Shown one piece after another: positions 47,318 through 59,651 of a DNA stretch of 64,000 nt. Location of the stretch: the NCBI RefSeq assembly GCF_001687305.1, contig NZ_LZRK01000004.1, positions 310,001 through 374,000 on the forward strand, written 5' to 3'. Position 1 is the first letter of the stretch. Each line of letters begins with the position of its first letter. The stretch is from Actinomyces vulturis (GTDB lineage Bacteria; Actinomycetota; Actinomycetes; Actinomycetales; Actinomycetaceae). The position numbers and the translations under genes are program-made. Under the pieces are notes generated by a model. That model was given only the letters and a program-made list of their open reading frames with translations, ran no database searches and was not told the origin of the DNA.

Positions 47318-47710
47318 AGACCCGTTCGAGAAATATTCAGTTATGACGCCACACCAACCAGGCGGGAGAACAAGGCGTTCGGGTACAAGAAAGGGCAAAC
47401 ACCCACGTGGGGTGTCTGCCCTAACTGCCTCGAACGTGTCTCCCAAAATGGTTGACGGACACAGGCTTGATCAGGGCCTGATCGAAGACATGTTCGAGGT
47501 GTCGCACCAGTGAATCGAGCCTTGTGGCCTAGACTGGTTTCATAGGAATTGATAGGAACCAGTCAGGCCATAGAGTTGAGATCGCTGGCGACAACATCTC
47601 TTGTGCCTTCACTTACAACCGTGAAGTTCGCAGAGTGCGGTGTCCAGCAAAGTGGCCTGTTTACAAGGTTTAGATGGTTTATAAGGTTTGTAGTTTCATG
47701 AGGAGGCGGG
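47318..47710. promoter_or_regulatory. Divergent control region between phage early genes and the defence island
   Basis: About 390 bases with no gene. An inverted repeat GATCAGGGCCTGATC lies at 47469-47483 and could be the operator of a phage repressor or of the island's HTH protein. A hairpin near 47400-47420 (CACCC/GGGTG) and the ribosome site GAGGAGG before 47711 are also visible. Confidence 0.45.
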
Positions 47711-48682
47711 ATGAGCGGCGTTGAGCAACACGATCGCTTAACTGGCGGTACGTTTTTCGTGCTTGTTCAAGAGGCACTTAAATCGCGTCACAGCAAGCGC
47801 GATACCCGAAGCGGTAAGTCTGATGGCCTGAATGATCCTGACGTATTTGTCGGACTGCACCGAATCGTTCTTCCCACGTTTGCAGATGACATGAAGGGCA
47901 GTACCTTCAAGCAGAACACGAGCGCCTTCAGGCGTTGTGAAACCGATGGATCGACAGCCAGCTATATCGAGTTTGGTACCGAGGAGTTCGCGCAGGACTG
48001 CCGGGTGCTTGCAGCAAACAATCGTGACCTCGGTTTGAGGCGTACAAGTAAATTTATTAACAAGTTCCTCGACCCTGCCAGATCTGGGGATAAACTCGTC
48101 CGTTCGTTGATGACACTTGTTTCCCGCGATAAGTCAATTCCCGATTCGGCAATTGTCTGTTACAACCAACACGCTGACCCAATGACTAAAGTCGAGCTTC
48201 TTGCCTCAGAAGAGGTCTGTCTCGAAGGGGTGCTGTTTGGACTGTTGTGCTACGCGGCTACGGAGACAAAAAACGTTGATGGCATCGGAACTTTTGACCG
48301 TTGGCATAAGCCAGCCGCACCTTACGTGAAACGAAAATTTGATGCAGTTGCTTTCGCAATGGAATTCCCCAAGGCTTCATACCTTCGCTACGAGGGCCAA
48401 CTAATTTCCTCAGATCACGATGAGATTCCCGAGTGTGATGAGTCGGAAGGCCTTGAGGCAGAGTTGCAGTGTCCGGTAGAAGACGATACGCCAGATGCCT
48501 ATCAGGACGATGATGTGGTTGAAGCGGAATTCGTTGATGAGAATGAGCAGGGCGAAGTAGCTGATGAGGATGTACAGGACGCTCAAACTCGACCATCACC
48601 AACCATGTTCTTTCAGCAAAACGGCAATAATAATCTGCAATTCGGCTCTGTCGGCACCATCAACATTGGACAGGGCTTCTAA
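47711..48682 (+). CDS. Candidate defence gene A, with C-terminal RHIM/amyloid-like motif
   Basis: A 323-residue protein that I do not recognise. Residues about 1-235 look globular, with blocks such as YIEFGTEEFAQDCRVLAANN and GTFDRWHKPAAPYVKRKFD. A very acidic, probably unstructured linker (about 236-290) follows. The last 21 residues contain QNGNNNLQFG (303-312) and then TINIG, fitting the Q-x-G-x-x-N pattern of RHIM-like and fungal/bacterial amyloid signalling motifs. The next gene carries the matching motif at its N-terminus. The stop and the next start share one base (TAATG). Probably a sensor or effector that recruits protein B; inferred. Confidence 0.65.
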   Translation: MSGVEQHDRLTGGTFFVLVQEALKSRHSKRDTRSGKSDGLNDPDVFVGLHRIVLPTFADDMKGSTFKQNTSAFRRCETDGSTASYIEFGTEEFAQDCRVLAANNRDLGLRRTSKFINKFLDPARSGDKLVRSLMTLVSRDKSIPDSAIVCYNQHADPMTKVELLASEEVCLEGVLFGLLCYAATETKNVDGIGTFDRWHKPAAPYVKRKFDAVAFAMEFPKASYLRYEGQLISSDHDEIPECDESEGLEAELQCPVEDDTPDAYQDDDVVEAEFVDENEQGEVADEDVQDAQTRPSPTMFFQQNGNNNLQFGSVGTINIGQGF

Positions 48683-49308
48683 TGAGTAATACTGAACTTT
48701 TGCCAGCGGCTCGTGCGTCTGCGCCGGTCTTGACATCTTCTGGAACACAGAACGGTGATCACAATGTGATGATTGGGCACGCTGAGGTCGTCAATGTTGT
48801 TGGGCCACAGGGCCTTTCGCGTCTTACCCGTAATATCGCAACAAGTCGAAAGTACTACCAACTACTAGTCAGCGAGCATTTCAGCCCGCATCATCGTTCT
48901 CTATGCATCCCAGCCAATGAAGCGCTAACTGACGGCACGTCTGCAGAGGATAAACAACGGCTTTCCCGTCTTGACGAGCCTGCGGTCCGGGAATTACTTA
49001 CTTTCCCGGCACTGCTCATGAATCCGAATCAAAACCATGGCAAAGCTAATGTCAACCAGCTGGCCTTCTACGGTTATCTCACGAGCATCGAGGTCTGTGA
49101 AGGGTATGTGCGTGTCGCCTACTGCACGCAAGCTGAATTGCCTCAACAAGCATTGAACGATTTAAAGGATTCGTTGTGCTTGCAATCAGCAGAACGATTT
49201 AATGAGCTCAACTTACCCCATTGGGCCGTCAAGAGCGTGAATCTTGTTTCTGTGCTCCATAAAGCAGGTTTTGATATGTCGTCAGTGACTTCAGGGAGCG
49301 CAGCGTGA
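48682..49308 (+). CDS. Candidate defence gene B, with N-terminal RHIM/amyloid-like motif
   Basis: A 208-residue protein of unknown family. A disordered Ala/Ser-rich start leads to QNGDHNVMIG (23-32) followed by VVNVV (36-40), which lines up without gaps with residues 303-319 of protein A. The rest is globular, with SRKYYQLLVSEHFSPHHRSL and a C-terminal LPHWAVKSVNLVSVLHKAG. Translation is coupled on both sides (TAATG before it, GTGA after it). It probably pairs with protein A through the motif and links it to the ATPase; inferred. Confidence 0.65.
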   Translation: MSNTELLPAARASAPVLTSSGTQNGDHNVMIGHAEVVNVVGPQGLSRLTRNIATSRKYYQLLVSEHFSPHHRSLCIPANEALTDGTSAEDKQRLSRLDEPAVRELLTFPALLMNPNQNHGKANVNQLAFYGYLTSIEVCEGYVRVAYCTQAELPQQALNDLKDSLCLQSAERFNELNLPHWAVKSVNLVSVLHKAGFDMSSVTSGSAA

Positions 49309-49514
49309 GTAACACGAATCTTCCTGCTGAAGGATGGGTCAACCTCGAGGACGTTGCTGAGTATTTGAGTCTGAGCAAGGACACAGTGCGTAACTGGATC
49401 AAGGACGGCAAACTTCCTGCCTACCGAGCAGGCAAGATGTACAAGTTCAAGATTTCCGAGATCGATCAGTGGATGCGTGAAGGGCGTCTGGGACAGGAGC
49501 CAGGCAATGAGTGA
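49305..49514 (+). CDS. Small excisionase-type helix-turn-helix protein (gene C)
   Basis: A 69-residue MerR/excisionase-like DNA-binding protein: NLEDVAEYLSLSKDTVRNWI is the helix-turn-helix and GKLPAYRAGKMYKFKISEID the wing. It starts with GTG overlapping the stop of gene B by four bases. Inside a four-gene operon it is more likely a regulator or DNA-binding subunit than an excisionase; no integrase is near. Such small HTH proteins also occur beside RloC-type ATPases in defence loci. Confidence 0.75.
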   Translation: MSNTNLPAEGWVNLEDVAEYLSLSKDTVRNWIKDGKLPAYRAGKMYKFKISEIDQWMREGRLGQEPGNE

Positions 49515-51825
49515 ACCGAAGATGCCAGGTGTTATTGAGAGCATCACTATTGCCCAGGCAACCTTTCAAACTGAAACCATCACTCCCACTGCGTTGAATT
49601 TCTTTTTCGGCAAGAACGGTGCGGGCAAGTCCACCATCGGGCGTGTCATCCGTAGTGGGAACACCCTGCGCTGGGGGTCAGGTATCGATCCGGCAGCCTA
49701 TAGCGTGCTGGTGTTCAACCAGGAGTTCATCACTGACAACTTCAGCACCTGCGAAGGCGTAAACGGAGTCTTCACCCTGGGCAAAGAGAACATCGAGGCG
49801 CAGGAGAACATCAAGCGTCTCGAGGAGGGACTCAAGCAGGCTGAGGAAACCGTTACTCAACACCAGCAGGTAGCCGAGGGGAAAGAAACTCAACTCTCCG
49901 CTCTTGCCGAAGGCTTCCGTGAAATATGCTGGTCGTGCACAGCCCAGGTACGTACACAGTTACCATTGGCTGTGAAGGGCAAGAAGACGAAGGCTCTTTT
50001 CGCCTCGCATGTTCTTGAGCAGAGCGAGGCCATTGAGCATGACTACAGTGAGCTCAGCAAGCTTTATGCGGCAGCTTTCAACGACCAGGCAAAAACCTAT
50101 ACAGCCTTGATCCCCATCAGCCATACCCTACCTAGCAGCGATCTGGTTAGTGAGCCGATCGTGAGCAGCGCGCAGACACCTTTTGCTCAGTTCGTACAAA
50201 ATCTCAATGCCACAGACTGGGTCCGTCAAGGTCACATTGCCTTCACTCACCACGACGGTGATCCTTGCCCGTACTGTCAGCAGACCCTGCCCGCAGACTT
50301 CGAAGATCTGCTCGCCTCATGCTTTGATGATGCCTACGAAACAAACCTGGCCACCCTCAAAACTTTTATCGAGGACTACACGAGTGTGGCGCGTCAGATT
50401 TGGTCGGCGGCAGTGCCTCCCTCTTCACTTCCGGACGTTCACCCCGATGTGGACCTGAAAGAGTATGGCACTGCCGCTGAACTTCTACGCAGCCAAATCG
50501 AGGGAAACATCCAGTTACTCAACAAAAAACTGCAAACCCCGAGCACCCAAGTCGAGCTTGTTGATCTTGCCCCAACAATCAGGAAGATCAATGACCTGAT
50601 CAGGCAAGCAAACGTCATCACTGATGCCCACAATGCCATCGTTGCCGACCAAGCACACCAGCGTAAAGCATGCACACGCATGGTCTGGGAACACTTGGCA
50701 CACATACTCTCGGAAGAAGTTGAGACCTACCGCAAGCAAAAACAGGCCTTGACCACTGAAAAAGAGGAAGCACACAGGCTTGCCGCCCAGGCCCGCAAAA
50801 CCCGTGACAACATTGAACGCACTCTGCGCGAAGCACGTAAGACCGTAGTCAACACACAAAGCGTCATCACAGAGATCAACCGCCTCTTAAAGGACAGCGG
50901 ATTCCAAGGGTTCCACCTTGCTTCAAACCCCGGCCATGAAGACACCTACCGGGTGGTGAGAGCTGACGGAACCACAGCAGTGCACCTGTCTGAGGGAGAA
51001 CGCAACTTCATTGCCTTCCTTTACTTCTACTACCTCGTTCACGGGAGCCACAGCCTCGACGAGGGGCACAAACACAAGATTGTGGTCATTGATGACCCGG
51101 TCTCCAGCATGGACTCAGCCACTATGCACGTGGTGGCGTTCTTGGTGCGCGAGTTGGCCAGTATCTGTGAGAACACCTGTGAATACCGCCACCACATCCA
51201 CCTGGGTGACTTCATCAAACAGCTCTTTGTGCTAACCCACAACGCATACTTCTTCCGCGAGGTCAGCTATAACCACCTCAGCGACTACCGCTATGCCTCC
51301 TACTACCTGATCCGTAAAGACAACAACGTCTCTACCATTAAGCAGTGCACCCGCAATCAAGCTGCAGCGCCCTCCCAGTTGGAAAACTACAGTCCAGTTG
51401 TTCACGGCTATGCGGCACTGTGGCAGGAATACCAAGAAGCCACATCAGCAGTCGTACTCATGAACGTCATGCGCCGTATCCTCGAACATTACTTCCTGCA
51501 ACTATGTGGCTACGAAGGCAGCAACATCGCCAACCGCATCCTCAAAGAAAACCGTGAGCGCTTCATTAAATACCACGCCGACGGCCACGAAGACCAAAGC
51601 GAATACAATCTCGTCGCTGCTGTTCTTGCCTATATCACCCACGGCATCAGCGGCATAGACGAGGACGCCTACTACATCGCCGATGCCCAAGACCCCGATC
51701 AACTACGCGCAGTCTTTGAACGCATCTTCACGCTTATGGATCAACACCAGCACTACGACATGATGACAAACACTCATCTCCCGTCACACCGTGCAGATCG
51801 CTTGGAGAAAGATAGCCGTGAGTGA
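49507..51825 (+). CDS. RloC/PrrC-like ABC ATPase with zinc hook (gene D)
   Basis: A 772-residue AAA_13-type protein. The P-loop is GKNGAGKS (35-42). Two coiled-coil arms meet at a zinc hook, CPYC (254-257). The ABC signature LSEGERNFIAF starts near 494, Walker B VVIDDPVSSMDS holds D529/D530, and FVLTHN follows. Near the C-terminus NVMRRILEHYF gives Arg656 and Glu660 four residues apart, with His690/694 about 30 residues on, like the Arg-Glu-His set of PrrC/RloC anticodon nucleases. Starts at 49507 after AGGAG, overlapping gene C by eight bases. ATP-gated tRNA cleavage is the likely effector activity, but many AAA_13 members are untested. Confidence 0.8.
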   Translation: MSEPKMPGVIESITIAQATFQTETITPTALNFFFGKNGAGKSTIGRVIRSGNTLRWGSGIDPAAYSVLVFNQEFITDNFSTCEGVNGVFTLGKENIEAQENIKRLEEGLKQAEETVTQHQQVAEGKETQLSALAEGFREICWSCTAQVRTQLPLAVKGKKTKALFASHVLEQSEAIEHDYSELSKLYAAAFNDQAKTYTALIPISHTLPSSDLVSEPIVSSAQTPFAQFVQNLNATDWVRQGHIAFTHHDGDPCPYCQQTLPADFEDLLASCFDDAYETNLATLKTFIEDYTSVARQIWSAAVPPSSLPDVHPDVDLKEYGTAAELLRSQIEGNIQLLNKKLQTPSTQVELVDLAPTIRKINDLIRQANVITDAHNAIVADQAHQRKACTRMVWEHLAHILSEEVETYRKQKQALTTEKEEAHRLAAQARKTRDNIERTLREARKTVVNTQSVITEINRLLKDSGFQGFHLASNPGHEDTYRVVRADGTTAVHLSEGERNFIAFLYFYYLVHGSHSLDEGHKHKIVVIDDPVSSMDSATMHVVAFLVRELASICENTCEYRHHIHLGDFIKQLFVLTHNAYFFREVSYNHLSDYRYASYYLIRKDNNVSTIKQCTRNQAAAPSQLENYSPVVHGYAALWQEYQEATSAVVLMNVMRRILEHYFLQLCGYEGSNIANRILKENRERFIKYHADGHEDQSEYNLVAAVLAYITHGISGIDEDAYYIADAQDPDQLRAVFERIFTLMDQHQHYDMMTNTHLPSHRADRLEKDSRE

Positions 51826-52033: not shown

Positions 52034-52067
52034 GTTATCGCTGGAGATGATGATAAGGATGGAAATC

Positions 52068-53198
52068 ATGCAGAATATAAAAGACGACGCTCGCGATGGC
52101 AACTCACCACTTAAAGCTGTTTCCCTTTTCACCGGAGCTGGCGGCATGGACATCGGATTTGCTGATGCAGGAATCGAAGCTGTCGTTGCTAATGAGATTA
52201 TGCCCCAAGCAGCCGCTACCTATCGTAAAAATCACCCAAATGTTCGTTTGTTTGAGGGTAGCATCGATGACCTTAAAGACGAGATTATTGCAGCAGGACT
52301 CGGCGCGGATGTAGTTTTTGGGGGACCTCCTTGTCAGGGATTTTCTGTTGCGGGAAAAATGGATCCAGATGATTTGCGGAGCAAACTTGTTTGGTCCTAT
52401 CTAGATGTTGTAAAAGGTATTCAGCCGATGCTATTCGTAATGGAGAATGTGAAAGCATTGGCTTCGCTGGAGAAGTGGCGTCCTATTCGTGAACGGTTCG
52501 TTCGAGAAGCCGAGGCCATCGGATATCACTGTGAATACTTAGTACTGAAGGCTTCCGACTTTGGTGTTCCCCAAAATCGCAAGCGTGTCTTCTTCGTCGG
52601 TAGCAAGACTAGATTCTCTTTAGATGACCTTAAATTAGCACTATTGGAGTTGACGCAGCAGCCTCCGACTCTTCGAGAGTTACTTGGTGGGTTACCTAAG
52701 TTTGGAAGCGAAGGAAACCCAGCTACTTGTTCAGCTAAAATTACACTCGCTTCAAATCCTGTCATGAGAAAATCTCCATACGCTGGCATGCTCTTCAATG
52801 GAATGGGACGCCCATTAAATCTCGATGGATACTCATATACTTTGCCGGCGTCAATGGGTGGGAACAAGACACCCATCGTAGATCAAGTTTTTCTGGATGA
52901 CGTTCACGAAACATCATGGGTAGAGGAATATCACGAAGCACTCATGACTGATTCAGCAGCACCGGCTTTCTCCGATGCTCCTTCACGTCTGCGCCGATTG
53001 ACATCACTTGAGGCCGCAGCAATTCAGACATTTCCAGAGGGGTACGTCTTTACTGGTCCCAAAACTTCTGTGTACACCCAAATTGGAAATGCTGTCCCCT
53101 GTAAACTAGCCGCAGCAATTGCGAAAGCTGCGCGGCTAGTTGCCATAGAAGGCAAACAATACGAAAGTTCAAGCCAGCACTTTGGGAGGCTACTGTGA
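52068..53198 (+). CDS. DNA (cytosine-5)-methyltransferase of a type II system
   Basis: A 376-residue C5-methyltransferase with motif I SLFTGAGGMDIGF, motif IV GGPPCQGFS (catalytic Cys), motif VI MENVKA, motif VIII QNRKRVFFVG, motif IX RRLTSLEAAAIQTFPEGY and motif X QIGNAVP, all in the normal order. It protects DNA from the nuclease encoded next. The ATG at 52068 is preferred (AAGG eight bases upstream); earlier in-frame ATGs at 52047-52061 are alternatives. GC content is clearly lower than in the phage genes. Confidence 0.93.
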   Translation: MQNIKDDARDGNSPLKAVSLFTGAGGMDIGFADAGIEAVVANEIMPQAAATYRKNHPNVRLFEGSIDDLKDEIIAAGLGADVVFGGPPCQGFSVAGKMDPDDLRSKLVWSYLDVVKGIQPMLFVMENVKALASLEKWRPIRERFVREAEAIGYHCEYLVLKASDFGVPQNRKRVFFVGSKTRFSLDDLKLALLELTQQPPTLRELLGGLPKFGSEGNPATCSAKITLASNPVMRKSPYAGMLFNGMGRPLNLDGYSYTLPASMGGNKTPIVDQVFLDDVHETSWVEEYHEALMTDSAAPAFSDAPSRLRRLTSLEAAAIQTFPEGYVFTGPKTSVYTQIGNAVPCKLAAAIAKAARLVAIEGKQYESSSQHFGRLL

Positions 53199-54304
53199 AA
53201 AACAATGAACTCCATAAATCTGCTAGAAATATTTTAGCTTCCGCATTACAAGATTGCGATAGTGCCCCACTCCCGGAAGAAGAAATCTGCGAACTCATCG
53301 ACACAATCATCGAGGGGAGTCACAAAACTTACAGATACATACTTTTTACCGCGATTACTGCCAAGGCTGCCGATTCCAATCTAAATCCTTTAGTTCTCCA
53401 AAAAAAGGCAAACACTTGGGGCACCTACGATGCTCGATCCCTCTGCCATAAGGTGTTAGTTCCTTTTGAGCGCGAGCATTTGAATAATTCCCTAGGTGGT
53501 TCAAATGAACCTTTTTTGAACAAGCCAGCACGCTTCGAGATGTTAAGTTTAGATAATGCAGTTCGGAACGGCAACGATAAGAAACTTCTAAACCTCCTTT
53601 GTGTGAGACTTCCGAAGATTAAATCAGATGCAGAGGCTTGGGCTGCTCTTTGTTACCTCATGCGCCTACTTCGCAAGAAAGCAGAAGCTATTCCTGAACG
53701 CTTCATTGAAGTTCAGATGGAACGCGGGGGCGCCGCTATTGAAATTCGTAGTTTCCTAGACTGCTTTCTGGAACACAATAATGGTGGTGAAGTTCTCACC
53801 TTAGCATTGGCAGGTATCCTTAACGAATTCTTGACTGATGACCCGACTTATCGTATTGAAGTTCATAACTTGAATCAGAGCGGAGCATCATCGCGAGAGA
53901 TTTCTGACTTGGATCTTTACCGCAACGAAAAAATTTTTGCATTATTCGAACTCAAGGACAAGGATTTTGACATTCCTGATATACAGCATGCTGTAAGAAA
54001 AGCTATCGAAGGTGGGTGCGACAGTCTAAATTTTATTTACGGCAGGTTTGCTAGTTTCGATAGTCAGACCGTGCAGTCATATCGTACAGCATTAATAGAA
54101 GACTCTTTTTGCTTGAATGTTTTTCCCATCGACGCCTTTATTGATTCGTTGCTCATAGTCGCACCGTCATTGAACTTGGGGCGAATGATTAACTACATGT
54201 TGAACACCGCTGAGTCTTGTCACTTTAGTACAGATACTAGCTCTTTGTTACTAGACATCGGAAAGGACTTCGAGGAAACAAAGATGACGTCGCAACACTT
54301 CTGA
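53195..54304 (+). CDS. Type II restriction endonuclease, SacI-like
   Basis: A 369-residue protein whose start codon (GTG) overlaps the methyltransferase stop by four bases. The central blocks GTYDARSLCHKVLVPFEREH and GGSNEPFLNKPARFEMLS resemble what I recall of the SacI endonuclease family. A PD-(D/E)XK-type centre may lie in EIRSFLDCF and IFALFELKDKDFDIPDIQHA (E-L-K). SacI cuts GAGCTC, and this enzyme may share that target. Coupled translation with the methyltransferase supports the pairing. Specificity is unproven. Confidence 0.7.
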   Translation: MKNNELHKSARNILASALQDCDSAPLPEEEICELIDTIIEGSHKTYRYILFTAITAKAADSNLNPLVLQKKANTWGTYDARSLCHKVLVPFEREHLNNSLGGSNEPFLNKPARFEMLSLDNAVRNGNDKKLLNLLCVRLPKIKSDAEAWAALCYLMRLLRKKAEAIPERFIEVQMERGGAAIEIRSFLDCFLEHNNGGEVLTLALAGILNEFLTDDPTYRIEVHNLNQSGASSREISDLDLYRNEKIFALFELKDKDFDIPDIQHAVRKAIEGGCDSLNFIYGRFASFDSQTVQSYRTALIEDSFCLNVFPIDAFIDSLLIVAPSLNLGRMINYMLNTAESCHFSTDTSSLLLDIGKDFEETKMTSQHF

Positions 54305-55059: not shown

Positions 55060-55251
55060 CTAGAGATCATGTTCGACACCCTCCGCGAGCGCATCAATAA
55101 CACTCTGGGGAATGGACATAGCGCAGTCCATAATCTCTGTTAGTTCGGCATCGCATCGTTCACATGGGAGCGAACTCAATATGCCGTGCTTGCATTCAAG
55201 TAGGCATTCGATGCACTCCCCCAATCTCCCGTGCTCGCATGGCTCATTCAT
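55060..55251 (-). CDS. Small zinc-ribbon-like protein
   Basis: A 63-residue protein with eight cysteines in CxxxxxxxxCxxC-like groups (CEHGRLGECIECLLECKHG, then CERCD), suggesting a compact zinc-binding fold. The ATG at 55251 follows GAGGTG, and the gene overlaps the end of the ATPase gene by eight bases. Last gene of the element's operon. Function unknown. Confidence 0.6.
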   Translation of the reverse strand: MNEPCEHGRLGECIECLLECKHGILSSLPCERCDAELTEIMDCAMSIPQSVIDALAEGVEHDL

Positions 55252-56338
55252 AGTGACACCTCTCTGCATTCACGGGTTCCGGGGTTCCCGGAACATGTTG
55301 GAACTGCGGAACGCTTGCCACTGTTTGAGAGGTTCCGGGTTCCGTACATATATGTAGGGAACTGGGAACTGCTTCCCGCCGCTTTTTTGCTTCTCTGTAT
55401 GCTTCGGCTACATCACTCCTGCGTTTTCCGGTTACTTTCTGCGCCTCTGAGATGCTTTTAGGAAATGGATCTGCAGAAAGTAGTTCTTTCACTAGGCCCT
55501 CACGATGCGCTTCAACTGATCCACTCAGTTCATTGCCCAATGCCGGACGAATAACTACGCTTGCTGGCCCTAATTCTTGTTCGTGCATTTCATACACAGC
55601 CGCCAGAGATTCGCCTCCGTTTTTTGTTCTTGCACAGTAGCGCCGTAAATTTCCACGCCGGTCTTTATGTACATACAGTTTGCATGCTCCGCCCCGCCCG
55701 GGAGCGAATGTTTGTTCGCCCGTAACGCGAATGGAAATTCCGTTGATAACGCCCTTTTTAGCGGTAGTTCCGCGAGCGCCGTAATCCCTAGATGTACTGT
55801 TCTTTGCGACATGGTCGATCATGACAACGCAGGCCCCAGAATTGGCCATGGGTTTCATGTAGAGGTTCACCATGCGCGTGAAATCGTCCGCATTATTGCT
55901 ATCACGGTTTTCTAGGGCCATGATGCGGTCCACGGTATCGATAACTACTATTTCCGGTTTCCACTGCTGGGAATCGTTTTGTAGCCATGCAGAGAGATCT
56001 CTAAGTTCTTCTGTACTCATTGGATCGATGTGCTGAAAGTTATCGCTCATGATCTGTTCAGTGGACACGCCCAGTAATGAGAGCCGTTTATGGACCTCCA
56101 CGAAACCATTCATGTCTGCATCAATAATCAGGGCTTTGCCACCACTTTGTAGCACCTGCGCAATGGCAGTGAGTGCTACCCATGTTTTCCCTGATTCTGA
56201 ATCACCGAATAGGTAGTTAATGGCGGCGCGGTTAAGTAGCCCAACTCCGTCACTGCGTTTGAGAAACTCTGGCGGCTGTCCGTAATCGTCGCCCATTTCC
56301 AATGCCCTGATCTTGTTCGTGAACTTTGGACGTTTCAT
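55244..56338 (-). CDS. RepA-like hexameric ATPase/helicase (AAA_25)
   Basis: A 364-residue RecA-fold ATPase. Walker A is FGDSESGKTWVAL, Walker B IVVIDTVDRIM, and the later block MIDHVAKNSTSRDYGARGTT is typical of RSF1010-RepA-like proteins. A C-terminal HTH-like tail (SISEAQKVTGKRRSDVAEAY) follows. It probably drives replication of the excised element. The ATG at 56338 overlaps the upstream stop by four bases; a frame open to 56410 lacks a ribosome site. Confidence 0.85.
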   Translation of the reverse strand: MKRPKFTNKIRALEMGDDYGQPPEFLKRSDGVGLLNRAAINYLFGDSESGKTWVALTAIAQVLQSGGKALIIDADMNGFVEVHKRLSLLGVSTEQIMSDNFQHIDPMSTEELRDLSAWLQNDSQQWKPEIVVIDTVDRIMALENRDSNNADDFTRMVNLYMKPMANSGACVVMIDHVAKNSTSRDYGARGTTAKKGVINGISIRVTGEQTFAPGRGGACKLYVHKDRRGNLRRYCARTKNGGESLAAVYEMHEQELGPASVVIRPALGNELSGSVEAHREGLVKELLSADPFPKSISEAQKVTGKRRSDVAEAYREAKKRREAVPSSLHICTEPGTSQTVASVPQFQHVPGTPEPVNAERCHYE

Positions 56339-56979
56339 AGAGCGATCCCCCGTTCCTGAAGAATTCGCTCCTGACTGAGTGCACGAGTTTCCTCCCCGCG
56401 AGCGCGGCATAAGTCTGCATAGTTCATTGAATGACTAGTTACATGCGCTGTTGCTTTGCATAACTGCTCGCGTTCGTAGTTCTGCCATAAGGCAGTGCGT
56501 TCGGCTTCTTGTTGCATGCCTTTGAGGATCCATTCGGGCGCGCAGTATTCAATAGCCCATTTCAGTCCCTCTTGAAAGCCTTGCTCACGTTGCATGTCAC
56601 TGAATGCATTCATGGCTTCATCGATCTTTGCCAATGCCTCTGGGGAATATGCGCTCAGATCATGCAACCACTCTGGGAGGGTTTTATCGCTATGTTTCGC
56701 AAGGTGAGCCATATACGCCCGGGTTTGGATATGGGTAACCTGCTCGCGACGGGTTGCGTAGAGTTGCGCGGCGTATTCCGGGCTAGCGTTGAAATCTGCG
56801 CTCGCGGTTAGACTTTCATTAGGCTCTCCGCTGTGTGCTGCTTGTTGTTCATTACGTTGGGAGCGCTTTTTAGCCTTGTTTTCCTCCTCTAAAGTCGGGA
56901 AACCATGGGGGAGGGAAAAATGGGCTGTTCCACCCCTCCCCTGCGTTTGTACGGGAGGGGTTTGGTATTCGCTGTTCAT
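56335..56979 (-). CDS. Element protein of unknown function, possible replication accessory
   Basis: A 214-residue hydrophilic, mostly helical protein. Segments ASPEYAAQLYATRREQVTHI and FQEGLKWAIEYCAPEWILKG are the most ordered parts. No family recognised. It lies between the HTH gene and the RepA-like ATPase with four-base overlaps on both sides, so a role in element replication is likely but unproven. Confidence 0.6.
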   Translation of the reverse strand: MNSEYQTPPVQTQGRGGTAHFSLPHGFPTLEEENKAKKRSQRNEQQAAHSGEPNESLTASADFNASPEYAAQLYATRREQVTHIQTRAYMAHLAKHSDKTLPEWLHDLSAYSPEALAKIDEAMNAFSDMQREQGFQEGLKWAIEYCAPEWILKGMQQEAERTALWQNYEREQLCKATAHVTSHSMNYADLCRARGEETRALSQERILQERGIAL

Positions 56980-57318: not shown

Positions 57319-57855
57319 CTACCTATTTCGTTCTCTCTCAGATATGACGCGGTGGAGTACATCGAGAGGAATCTGGGAGATTCCCAGATCTTGCAATTTG
57401 TCGCCCAACCATTGAACGGTGTCCTGACGTAGTTCAAGTCTGGTGCCTGTACAAAACGGACATTGCACAGCAAACCTCGTTCGCTCAATATCGGTGTAAG
57501 TCACGTTATCTTCTGCATCAAGATCGGCGTATTCGCCCTGATTGCTCAAAAACCACGAATGTGCACGAAAATCTTCAGGGATATACCTTTCGCCACTTTC
57601 ATGCTTCTGCAAAAACTCAGATAACGGGTGAACCACATGGCAAAGTTTCTCCGGACACTTAATTGCGGCAAGCACACGTGGCTTCTTGTTCGGGTGATTC
57701 TCTGAGTGCATACACGCAATAGGCATGGAGGGACATACCGCTGATTCCCACCAATGAGAGACCGTTTTGGGGTTTCTAGACATGTCCGCCCAGTTAGATT
57801 CGAGCGCCTCAAAAAGTTCGATGTAGCCCTCTGGAAATGCTTCTTTCTGGCCCAT
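57319..57855 (-). CDS. Element protein with a zinc-ribbon motif
   Basis: A 178-residue protein containing CPFCTGTRLELRQDTVQWLG and several other Cys/His residues (AIKCPEKLCHVVHP), suggesting zinc binding. No family recognised. Its start shares one base with the integrase stop, so it is coupled to the integrase. The 117 bases that follow, before the HTH gene, hold no gene but a promoter for the replication genes is possible. Confidence 0.6.
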   Translation of the reverse strand: MGQKEAFPEGYIELFEALESNWADMSRNPKTVSHWWESAVCPSMPIACMHSENHPNKKPRVLAAIKCPEKLCHVVHPLSEFLQKHESGERYIPEDFRAHSWFLSNQGEYADLDAEDNVTYTDIERTRFAVQCPFCTGTRLELRQDTVQWLGDKLQDLGISQIPLDVLHRVISERERNR

Positions 57856-59096
57856 TAGTTCACTTTTCTCTTGGAATCGATGCTGACAACATTCGCCAGT
57901 TCCGTGTCATTGCGCTGTGTTTGCATTCTGGATACAAACAGTTCTTGCATGTCCATATCGGCATGCTGATAGCGCATAGCGCTCTTTACATCGCTCCACC
58001 CGTATCTGGCCATGAGTGCCGCTAATGGCGCTCCAGCTAGCCCATATTTCGTTGCTGAGTAGTGGCGTAGTGCGTGATAGGTGAACTCTTTGCCTTTCGG
58101 CACCTGAATGCCTGCGCTCGCGGCTATCGCCTTGAATTCGATGCTGGCCCTATCGTCACGCCAGTACCGATTCGGATCGCTCTTTGAGGGAAACAGGATT
58201 GCTTCAGGATCATTGGCAACAAAGTTATCGAGATGATCTGTCATCACTGGCCACGATGAGGGCATCAGAATGACTGTCCGTTTTCCCGCTTCACTCTTTG
58301 TTGTGCCCTCAATAGAGCCAGTGTTCTCAGAACCAGTAGCGGCACGAGTTAATGTGCGTTCTACTCTGATACGAACATCTGTTACTTTCCCATGATTATC
58401 TCTAGTAATTGCAACATCTTTACGTCGTAATGCGAGTGCTTCATTAACGCGTAGTCCGCCGTCGTACCCTAGACAGATAAACGCCTGCATCGATTCTGGG
58501 GTGAACTCCATAAGGCGCTGTATCTCATCATCGCTGGCAAGATAACGGCATTCTCTTTGCTCGCTTTTTCCAGCGCCTTTAATCTTCACTGGGGAGGTCA
58601 CTAGGGCTGTTCGATCTGATTCCACAGCGGCCAGAAACATGGCACGAACTGTTTGATACGGTGCTTCCCTTTTTACGGTTAGCCCGTCGTACCACTGTTC
58701 GATATCTGCGCGGGTTACATCGATTAAGCGCTTATTCCCCAGTACAGGGACGATGTGGTTATGAACGCGTGCACTGATCGTTCGATGTGTAGATGTTTTA
58801 CTCTCTCGCTCTTTCATGCGCAGATAAATCTCCGCCCATTGAGCAACGGTGATTGCCTCTTTCGCATCTTGTTCACGGCGTTGCTCAGTTTGTAGAGCGG
58901 CTTTACTTGGATCTACCCATACCCCGCGGGCGATATCTGATTCGATTCTGGCTAACGCCACGTTCGCATCGCTTTTTGTCCTGAATGTTTGACTGACACG
59001 ACGGCCACTATCAGGAGCAACATAACGCAACCTCCAGCGGCCACTATCGAGTTTGTTAATACTCCCGAATGACCTATCACGTCGCCTAGTTGCCAC
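57855..59096 (-). CDS. int: Tyrosine recombinase integrase of the ssrA element
   Basis: A 413-residue phage-type integrase. Arm-binding domain at residues about 1-60 (GRWRLRYVAPDSGRRVSQTF), core-binding (SAM-like) domain about 75-175, and the catalytic domain with R in GYDGGLRVNEALAL, H-x-x-R in YHALRHYSATKYG and the tyrosine in AMRYQHADM. GTG start (59096) after AGGAG. Downstream of ssrA; the 130 bases before it carry a tandem decamer ATTCCATTAC (59167-59186), possibly an arm site. Integration into ssrA is shown by the 18-bp repeat. Confidence 0.93.
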   Translation of the reverse strand: MATRRRDRSFGSINKLDSGRWRLRYVAPDSGRRVSQTFRTKSDANVALARIESDIARGVWVDPSKAALQTEQRREQDAKEAITVAQWAEIYLRMKERESKTSTHRTISARVHNHIVPVLGNKRLIDVTRADIEQWYDGLTVKREAPYQTVRAMFLAAVESDRTALVTSPVKIKGAGKSEQRECRYLASDDEIQRLMEFTPESMQAFICLGYDGGLRVNEALALRRKDVAITRDNHGKVTDVRIRVERTLTRAATGSENTGSIEGTTKSEAGKRTVILMPSSWPVMTDHLDNFVANDPEAILFPSKSDPNRYWRDDRASIEFKAIAASAGIQVPKGKEFTYHALRHYSATKYGLAGAPLAALMARYGWSDVKSAMRYQHADMDMQELFVSRMQTQRNDTELANVVSIDSKRKVN

Positions 59097-59232
59097 TGCT
59101 CTGTTCTCCTAGTTTGAGAATGGACCGGCGTAGATTCGTGTCCTCCCCGTGTCCTAAGAGAATGATATTCCATTACATTCCATTACATTTGATTGTTGAT
59201 TAAGTTCTCCAGTTTTCCCAGTCATTGCAATG

Positions 59233-59270
59233 AAAAACCGCCACATCTCAGTGATTACTAAGAGTGGCGG
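59233..59270 (-). terminator. ssrA: Terminator downstream of tmRNA
   Basis: CCGCCAC (59238-59244 on plus) pairs with GTGGCGG (59264-59270); on the minus strand a run of U follows (59237-59233). A diverged copy is present at 21998-22045. Confidence 0.75.
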
Positions 59271-59281
59271 AATTTCAATCT

Positions 59282-59299
59282 GTGGAGATGCGGGGAATC
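59282..59299. repeat. att core copy (right), 3' end of ssrA
   Basis: GTGGAGATGCGGGGAATC, covering the acceptor stem and T-arm end of the tmRNA gene; identical to 54956-54973. Integration restores the tmRNA 3' end. Confidence 0.85.
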
Positions 59300-59651
59300 G
59301 AACCCCGGTCCGACGGTGATGCAACAGGACTTCTCCGGGTGCAGTTCGCTAGCGATTTTCTCAGCCTCGTGATCTCACGCGAACAAGGATCACGACAGGC
59401 TCAGTTAGTGAAGAGTTCTGTTTATGCGACTAACACACATAAACAGCAGTGGCTCCCTAGATGACGCCAGGAACCGAGGCGGAAGCAATCCTCGGGCTGA
59501 CGGACTTGGCAGCTCGCTCAGGCGGCGAGGGCGAAGTCGGTGCGATTGTGTTCGGCACCTATTGGTTTGACACAGAGCGTTAACGAGATGACTGCGCATC
59601 CTCGACCCGCTTCTCCTGAACCCATGACCGTCGTCGAAACCGATCATCCCC
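59283..59651 (-). ncRNA. ssrA: Transfer-messenger RNA
   Basis: About 369 bases. The 5' end GGGGATGATCGGTTTCGACG and the 3' end GGTTCGATTCCCCGCATCTCC form the tRNA-like part (GGGGATG pairs with CATCTCC). The tag frame (59556-59518) reads AEHNRTDFALAA then stop. CCA appears to be added after transcription. It rescues stalled ribosomes together with SmpB, which is encoded just upstream. Its 3' end is the attachment site of the neighbouring element. Confidence 0.95.

Follow-up and report, generated by a model that had tools for sequence, protein, structure and literature searches.

Within a prophage region of the window, the stretch of 64,000 nucleotides from Actinomyces vulturis examined here (contig NZ_LZRK01000004.1, positions 310,001 to 374,000 of the forward strand; coordinates below count from its first letter), four overlapping genes named A to D probably form an abortive-infection-type sensor-effector cassette linked to restriction-modification (R-M) genes, in which D would sense, B would template and A would act. 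The most likely form of such a cassette is amyloid-type coupling to a sensor that is not an NLR, that is, NLR-style signalling without an NLR. The joining of sensors to effectors via matched sticky tails has so far been described mainly for NLR-type immune receptors, and a passage of a review on amyloid signalling poses NLR-independent signalling amyloids in fungi and bacteria as an open question (PMC7889193). The cassette provides a concrete and recurring test case for them. Its genes are as follows.

47711..48682, + strand: gene A, 323 amino acids (aa), open reading frame (ORF) call, proposed effector
48682..49308, + strand: gene B, 208 aa, N-terminal motif and conserved core, proposed adaptor
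49305..49514, + strand: gene C, 69 aa, HTH_17 / excisionase-like / MAD1-like, proposed regulator
49507..51825, + strand: gene D, 772 aa, RloC-type ABC/Rad50-like ATPase, proposed sensor

The four ORFs, which an earlier note made from the sequence had called, were confirmed, all on the + strand, with overlaps of 1, 4 and 8 bases at A/B, B/C and C/D. A longer D could start at the GTG at 49477; the usual N-terminus of the family is given by the ATG at 49507. Gene C is indeed a small helix-turn-helix (HTH) protein, HTH_17/excisionase-like by profile and also MAD1-like.

In the proposed mechanism, D, a Rad50/RloC-type zinc-hook ATPase, would sense the state of the DNA, probably free ends or failing restriction, and would alter the state of B. 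The amyloid-type motif at the N-terminus of B may then template or bind the matching C-terminal motif of A, upon which A would cluster and its helical body would perform the damaging step, with C putatively controlling transcription.

Matched terminal motifs of A and B

The end of A and the beginning of B carry motifs that are short, rich in N, Q and G, and variable between systems yet matched. In the window these are the following.

48617..48667, + strand: A tail motif QNGNNNLQFGSVGTINI, residues 303-319
48748..48798, + strand: B head motif QNGDHNVMIGHAEVVNV, residues 23-39, counterpart of the tail of A

The two segments align with a score of 41, a value reached in 3 of 2000 trials in which the B head was shuffled. 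This pair is moderate by itself, since 5 of 35 foreign B heads score equally high, and the strength of the match lies at the family level. For each system the last 50 residues of A were scored against the first 90 of the partner; 148 loci yielded 86 distinct pairs (83 with B, 3 with NACHT proteins), from which 36 representatives below 60% identity were retained. The own pairs averaged 52.7 against 29.1 (standard deviation 1.5) in permuted pairings (z 15.4; 0 of 20,000 permutations), and three control comparisons of other regions in these proteins gave z values of -1.1, 1.7 and 2.3. The own partner ranked first in 15 of the 36 systems and among the top three in 28, exceeded the partner of the nearest relative in 28 (7 losses, 1 tie; p 5e-4), and in 24 scored above the 95th percentile of foreign pairs. 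Likewise, z was 9.8 for 19 systems below 45% identity (controls -1.1, 2.2 and 1.1) and 12.3 for a smaller set of 71 loci with 22 representatives. The terminal motif that the earlier note had seen in both proteins is thus borne out by the window alignment and by matching across the family.

At a threshold of 5 bits, a profile of the A tail recognized 145 of 148 A C-termini, the set (with redundant loci) on which it had been trained. It also recognized 110 of 148 partner heads and 2 of the 148 stretches of A bodies that served as controls. Examples of tail and head are NVVMPNYGTITI/NVMVPNYGTVNI (locus L006; L numbers denote loci) and GTGDIYSDIETLTIN/GSGDIYSNIGSVTVN (L080). In the tandem-B systems L180 (3860-8398) and L185 (3677-7182) both B heads bear GIA[IV]G, which is also found in the A tail of L180; the A frame of L185, as read, stops without a tail. 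Identical tail residues were encoded by identical codons in 170 of 367 cases, with 166.5 expected from codon usage. Hence the likeness of the tails appears to be kept by selection at the protein level rather than by fresh copying of DNA, and a recent DNA duplication was rejected as its source.

Protein A as the probable output

The AlphaFold2 model of A (mean predicted local distance difference test, pLDDT, 77.5) consists of a helical body (about residues 1-235), a low-confidence linker and the C-terminal motif. The body is predicted confidently (of the 19 blocks of ten residues that span 11-200, 16 exceed 85), and the tail appears as two short strands (302-305 and 308-311) of low confidence. 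Neither Pfam and NCBIfam (E<=1) nor PHROG (E<=0.1) returned a match for window A or B, which agrees with their earlier description as unknown proteins and gives no sign of a known non-defence phage family. Protein A and the B core are two families without a name in the profile libraries scanned. The core of B has one strongly conserved signature.

49219..49233, + strand: B core signature HWAVK (H180 in 98%, W181 in 98% and K184 in 100% of 41 rows)

A Foldseek comparison of the A model with PDB and BFVD gave no match at E<=0.001, and sequence searches of PDB yielded no useful relative, the two matches to D being confined to its coiled-coil part. A Pfam scan of 27 A rows returned five sporadic matches, one row each (best 0.0072). 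Membership of A in HamA of Hachiman (HamA / DUF1837 domain) is not assumed, the matches being weak and partial: PADLOC HamA1 matched window A marginally (0.0032) and 8 of the 27 rows (best 2.5e-4), Pfam HamA matched none of the 27, and no PDB fold matched A. A membrane-pore effector of the Bell type is disfavoured by hydropathy, though not disproved; 51 of 55 A rows have no strongly hydrophobic stretch of 19 residues.

The role of A is indicated by the company it keeps. In ten loci (L024, L033, L035, L040, L065, L075, L083, L084, L086 and L090; 9 distinct linkers) the A body is fused to the N-terminus of a NACHT protein (NACHT match 2e-10 in L065), and in L034 it is paired with a separate one (NACHT 8e-12, SNaCT14 9e-74). 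N-terminal domains of NACHT proteins are usually effectors. Neither B nor D was found at the A-NACHT loci; a C-like HTH gene follows the A/NACHT gene pair in L012, L034 and L056. The tail motif (at least 5 bits) was present in 0 of the 9 distinct fusion linkers. Of 4 A-B fusions, scanned at frame residues 190-300 only, 1 had the motif; those of greater length (566-580 aa) could bear a tail outside that range. Moreover, in L092 (3254-3814) and L122 (5323-5973) the place before B and D is taken by an unrelated, effector-like body, A2, which ends in a tail of this type. The two A2 proteins resemble each other at 2e-34 and had no Pfam match at E<=1; their likeness to A is limited to linker and tail, and A2 as a diverged A was therefore rejected. 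The A2 tail is a good fit to its own B head in L122 (score 58) and a weak one in L092 (29). The B core occurs fused to CAP12-TIR (L002:5935-6846), SEFIR/TIR_2 (L152:5896-6810) and FRG (L153:6013-7326).

Since A stands in the N-terminal place of NACHT proteins, is swapped for A2, and the B core is fused to known effector domains, A looks like the output, and these sequence relations suggest that A is an effector with B and D as its receiver. The reverse order, in which A senses, B is recruited and D cleaves tRNA, had been put forward in the earlier note and does not fit these positions.

An alternative that keeps A as the effector is a machine similar to Lamassu or ABC-3C, in which A, B and D would form a stable complex, the tails would be ordinary non-amyloid docking parts, and A would be released or activated when D binds DNA. 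The plan is the published one of effector, middle component and SMC-like ATPase, the C-terminus of LmuA being described in the part of the source available as a possible docking part (PMC10586767), and A-NACHT fusions that have no detected tail are in its favour. Against it, the tails are short, rich in N, Q and G, and variable yet matched, and the same A pairs with NACHT proteins as in published amyloid signalling pairs. By profile, D fits PDC-S06 (1.6e-203), a table entry in the accessible part of PMC11514479, far better than LmuB (2.7e-18), and neither A nor B matches a LmuA/LmuC model. Membership in Lamassu is accordingly rejected, and a Lamassu-like machine is considered unlikely, if the best placed of the alternatives. 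The cassette shares with Lamassu and ABC-3C a variable effector, a small middle protein and an SMC/Rad50-like ATPase in one operon; it differs in its protein families, in the matched short tails that join effector and middle protein, and in the extra HTH gene C.

Protein D: a relative of RloC whose group has largely lost the triad histidine

Protein D is an RloC/PrrC-type ATPase with a zinc hook, as the earlier note had recognized (AAA_13, PF13166, 2e-125); in PADLOC, where PDC-S06 is its best match, PrrC is matched weakly (7e-8). Its landmarks are listed here.

49609..49635, + strand: P-loop GKNGAGKST, residues 35-43
50266..50277, + strand: zinc hook CPYC, residues 254-257 (conservation of C254, P255 and C257 no lower than 95% among 45 distinct D)
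51472..51486, + strand: R656-x3-E660, first two residues of the RloC triad
51628..51660, + strand: residues 708-718, AYITHGISGID, at the place of the RloC-type catalytic His (e.g. NDGSHS); His unaligned, H712 nearby

According to the portion of the RloC study that is accessible, the enzyme requires R-X3-E-X36-52-H, and Ala at any of the three positions abolished activity (PMC2610378). In the window, S715 aligns with the canonical His, and H712 lies three residues ahead of it. Distinct D homologues with a length of 650 aa or more number 79. The canonical His is present in all 12 of them that have no A or B in the flanks fetched (10 as SH), several of which are distant, and in 2 of the 67 linked to A/B, being lost in the other 65. 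The 67 fall in one clade of the tree, with a support of only 0.53. Among 66 D with B, R is kept in 62 (replaced in 4) and E in 55 (replaced in 11). Of the candidate Arg-Glu-His nuclease set named for D in the earlier note, R656 and E660 are present in the window, and the candidate for the third residue, H712, is not conserved in the family.

Judged from these sequences, D derives from RloC stock, and tRNA cleavage by D is doubtful, though catalysis may still occur in the D of the window, whose H712 lies within the allowed spacing. RloC itself is described in the available part of PMC3874168 as activated by DNA breaks, which makes a sensor role natural for D; since the His has gone from its clade while R and, for the most part, E persist, D looks like a sensor. 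The mechanism of the earlier note, with A sensing, the motif recruiting B and D released as an ATP-gated anticodon nuclease, draws on the homology of D to RloC, the conserved R656, the mostly conserved E660 and a window H712 at the permitted distance from E660. Against it are the loss of the His column specifically in A/B-linked D, the replacements of R and E, and the occupation of effector positions by A; it is thus an improbable account, somewhat more so than the Lamassu-like machine.

As side observations, D is split into several open frames in L018 and L068, and some copies look broken.

Gene order, distribution and restriction-modification neighbours

The order of the genes is conserved. 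Among 107 distinct A sequences, some of which are fragments of split or cut ORFs, the arrangements were counted as follows.

A B C D: 51 (and 4 near a contig end)
A B D: 14
A B C: 7 (and 2 near a contig end)
A B: 2 (and 2 near a contig end)
A NACHT C: 3
A-NACHT fused: 9
A-B fused: 4
A alone, near a contig end or cut: 9

D adjoins A-B in most loci with enough flank, and the idea that the pair is never next to D was in this way set aside. A few loci depart from the order. In L045, L046 and L069 there is no D, and A-B-C precedes an ORF of about 1076 aa, which in L069 is an SNF2-type helicase with a DUF4391 protein after it; a 433-aa ORF with no Pfam match lies between B and C in one locus (L039:7488-8786).

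A tblastn search of 50,697 phage records detected A in 7 and B likewise in 7; three of the four A-bearing records examined have A-B-C-D, and in the fourth A lies at the end of the record. Single-sequence queries with A or B found nothing in viral contigs and alignment queries succeeded, locating A at 43 viral and 41 bacterial-genome loci, with a further 51 loci for B and 34 for D; several loci share a contig. The cassette occurs in phage contigs and Bacillota-type genomes; judged by their titles, A-bearing genome records belong mainly to Clostridia, Lachnospiraceae and kin, with three contigs labelled Prevotella, and a Lactococcus plasmid carries A-B. In the set of relatives of the host, A was present in 1 of 59 genomes, the window's own only, suggesting a mobile cassette that few members of the host group carry.

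R-M genes are frequent neighbours. The longest + strand ORF of at least 150 aa starting no more than 1.2 kb past D was scanned in 62 distinct loci, and among the best 25 of 56 families the matches were N6_Mtase (22), HsdM_N (17), ResIII (8), SNF2 (7), C5 methylase (4), Eco57I (4), FokI (2), and MspI, SinI, NgoBV and SacI (once each), counts that overlap, are not additive and stand without a background rate. Across genomes this is a conserved, cargo-like cassette, with R-M genes often adjoining D. These facts bear on the least favoured alternative, a very improbable one in which the cassette controls prophage superinfection or induction without killing the cell, C being an excisionase-like switch and the R-M genes incidental cargo: although the cassette lies largely in phage contigs and C resembles excisionases, A-B also occurs on a plasmid and A with NACHT proteins, R-M genes often follow D, and the cassette has a guanine-plus-cytosine (GC) content of 0.51-0.53 against 0.56-0.59 in the adjoining phage genes. 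The R-M part has 0.46 (all three values from 2-kb windows), and the pattern is as for imported cargo.

Weighing the amyloid-type pathway

Several observations weigh against amyloid-type coupling of A to a sensing D. The matched tails could be a non-amyloid docking pair. The motifs are diverse, a simple RHIM-like pattern of our own fitting only 31 A tails and 26 heads out of 85 each; 12 of the 36 own pairs stay at or below the 95th percentile of foreign pairs, and the control with z 2.3, body against body, is slightly positive. Protein A has no recognized catalytic site or fold. The motif is kept in one A-B fusion, L091, which is also the fusion that adjoins D. Some A-B-C or A-B loci have no D, so that B must sometimes take another input. 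As to D, the retention of R656 and mostly of E660 would be odd if the HEPN domain were idle, H712 lies at E660+52 and hence just within the published spacing, and a His at the H712 place is also present in L015 and L019-L021.

A more specific version of the pathway has slightly less than an even chance of being correct. It would be a bacterial amyloid pathway independent of NLRs, in which an RloC ancestor lost its tRNase, its ATPase became a sensor of DNA state, and this sensor fires a swappable effector (A or A2) through B by means of system-specific, prion-like tails; the effector and the tail code would be shared with NACHT NLRs, and at least one system, L180, would operate with three matched tails (those of A and two tandem B). 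The comparison suggests a possible route from a self-contained toxin, RloC, to a modular receptor with exchangeable killers. Natural controls are at hand in the effector body A, which in some loci accompanies a NACHT protein, in others a non-NLR ATPase, and elsewhere is fused to its partner with no tail detected.

Comparison with known systems

In the published pattern, as given in the parts of the sources available, adjacent genes carry paired motifs at effector C-termini and receptor N-termini (PMC12261475, PMC8086366, PMC7889193). The cassette resembles these NLR amyloid pairs (BASS motifs; Bell-domain effector with NLR) in its adjacent or overlapping genes, the C-terminal motif of the effector-like protein and the matched N-terminal motif on the receptor side. 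In addition, the A family itself occurs with NACHT proteins, paired and fused, and in L034 the partner has a SNaCT14 C-terminus, so that bacterial NACHT proteins share the A body as an N-terminal fusion or a neighbour. However, the receiver in the window is B plus an RloC-type ABC ATPase (AAA_13) and not an NLR (NACHT/NB-ARC), which is found only in the A-NACHT relatives; matching of motifs is clear at the family level and moderate in the window pair alone; and A has no support as a Bell domain, the likeness resting on layout and tail matching, not on BASS profiles.

With RloC and PrrC the cassette shares the AAA_13 ATPase, the CPxC zinc hook and R-x3-E in the C-terminal domain, and with PrrC the published R-M neighbourhood. 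It differs in the lost His column and in two extra coupled proteins. R-M linkage is called rare for RloC in the accessible portions of two papers (PMC2610378, PMC3874168), whereas R-M neighbours are frequent beside the D of the cassette. The statement of the earlier note that no named system has this gene set is upheld by the Pfam, NCBIfam, PADLOC and PHROG scans. Among the literature matches listed, no title or abstract opening links paired tails to ATPases of the RloC type; the search covered only a minority of subscription papers and preprints.

Surroundings of the cassette in the window

The phage replication genes upstream (exonuclease, DNA polymerase and helicase/primase) are on the - strand and the cassette is on the +, so that it is read opposite to them, as noted before. 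Neighbouring features are listed below.

47392..47422, - strand: terminator-like hairpin of 13 pairs, between A and the opposite-strand upstream gene, consensus match
52047..53198, + strand: C5 cytosine DNA methyltransferase, first gene downstream of D
53195..54304, + strand: SacI-type restriction endonuclease (PF09566), profile match
57855-59096: integrase, PHROG match
59282-59651: transfer-messenger RNA (tmRNA) gene

Terminator-like hairpins in the region numbered 6, with 4.6 expected from shuffles, and a promoter scan of the region gave a result no better than chance. Between the R-M pair and the integrase lie two - strand ORFs (55244-56979), of which one has weak RecA/UvsX-like matches; the - strand ORF at 56335-56979 has no PHROG match. 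The integrase adjoining the tmRNA gene (57855-59651) suggests integration of the prophage at ssrA.

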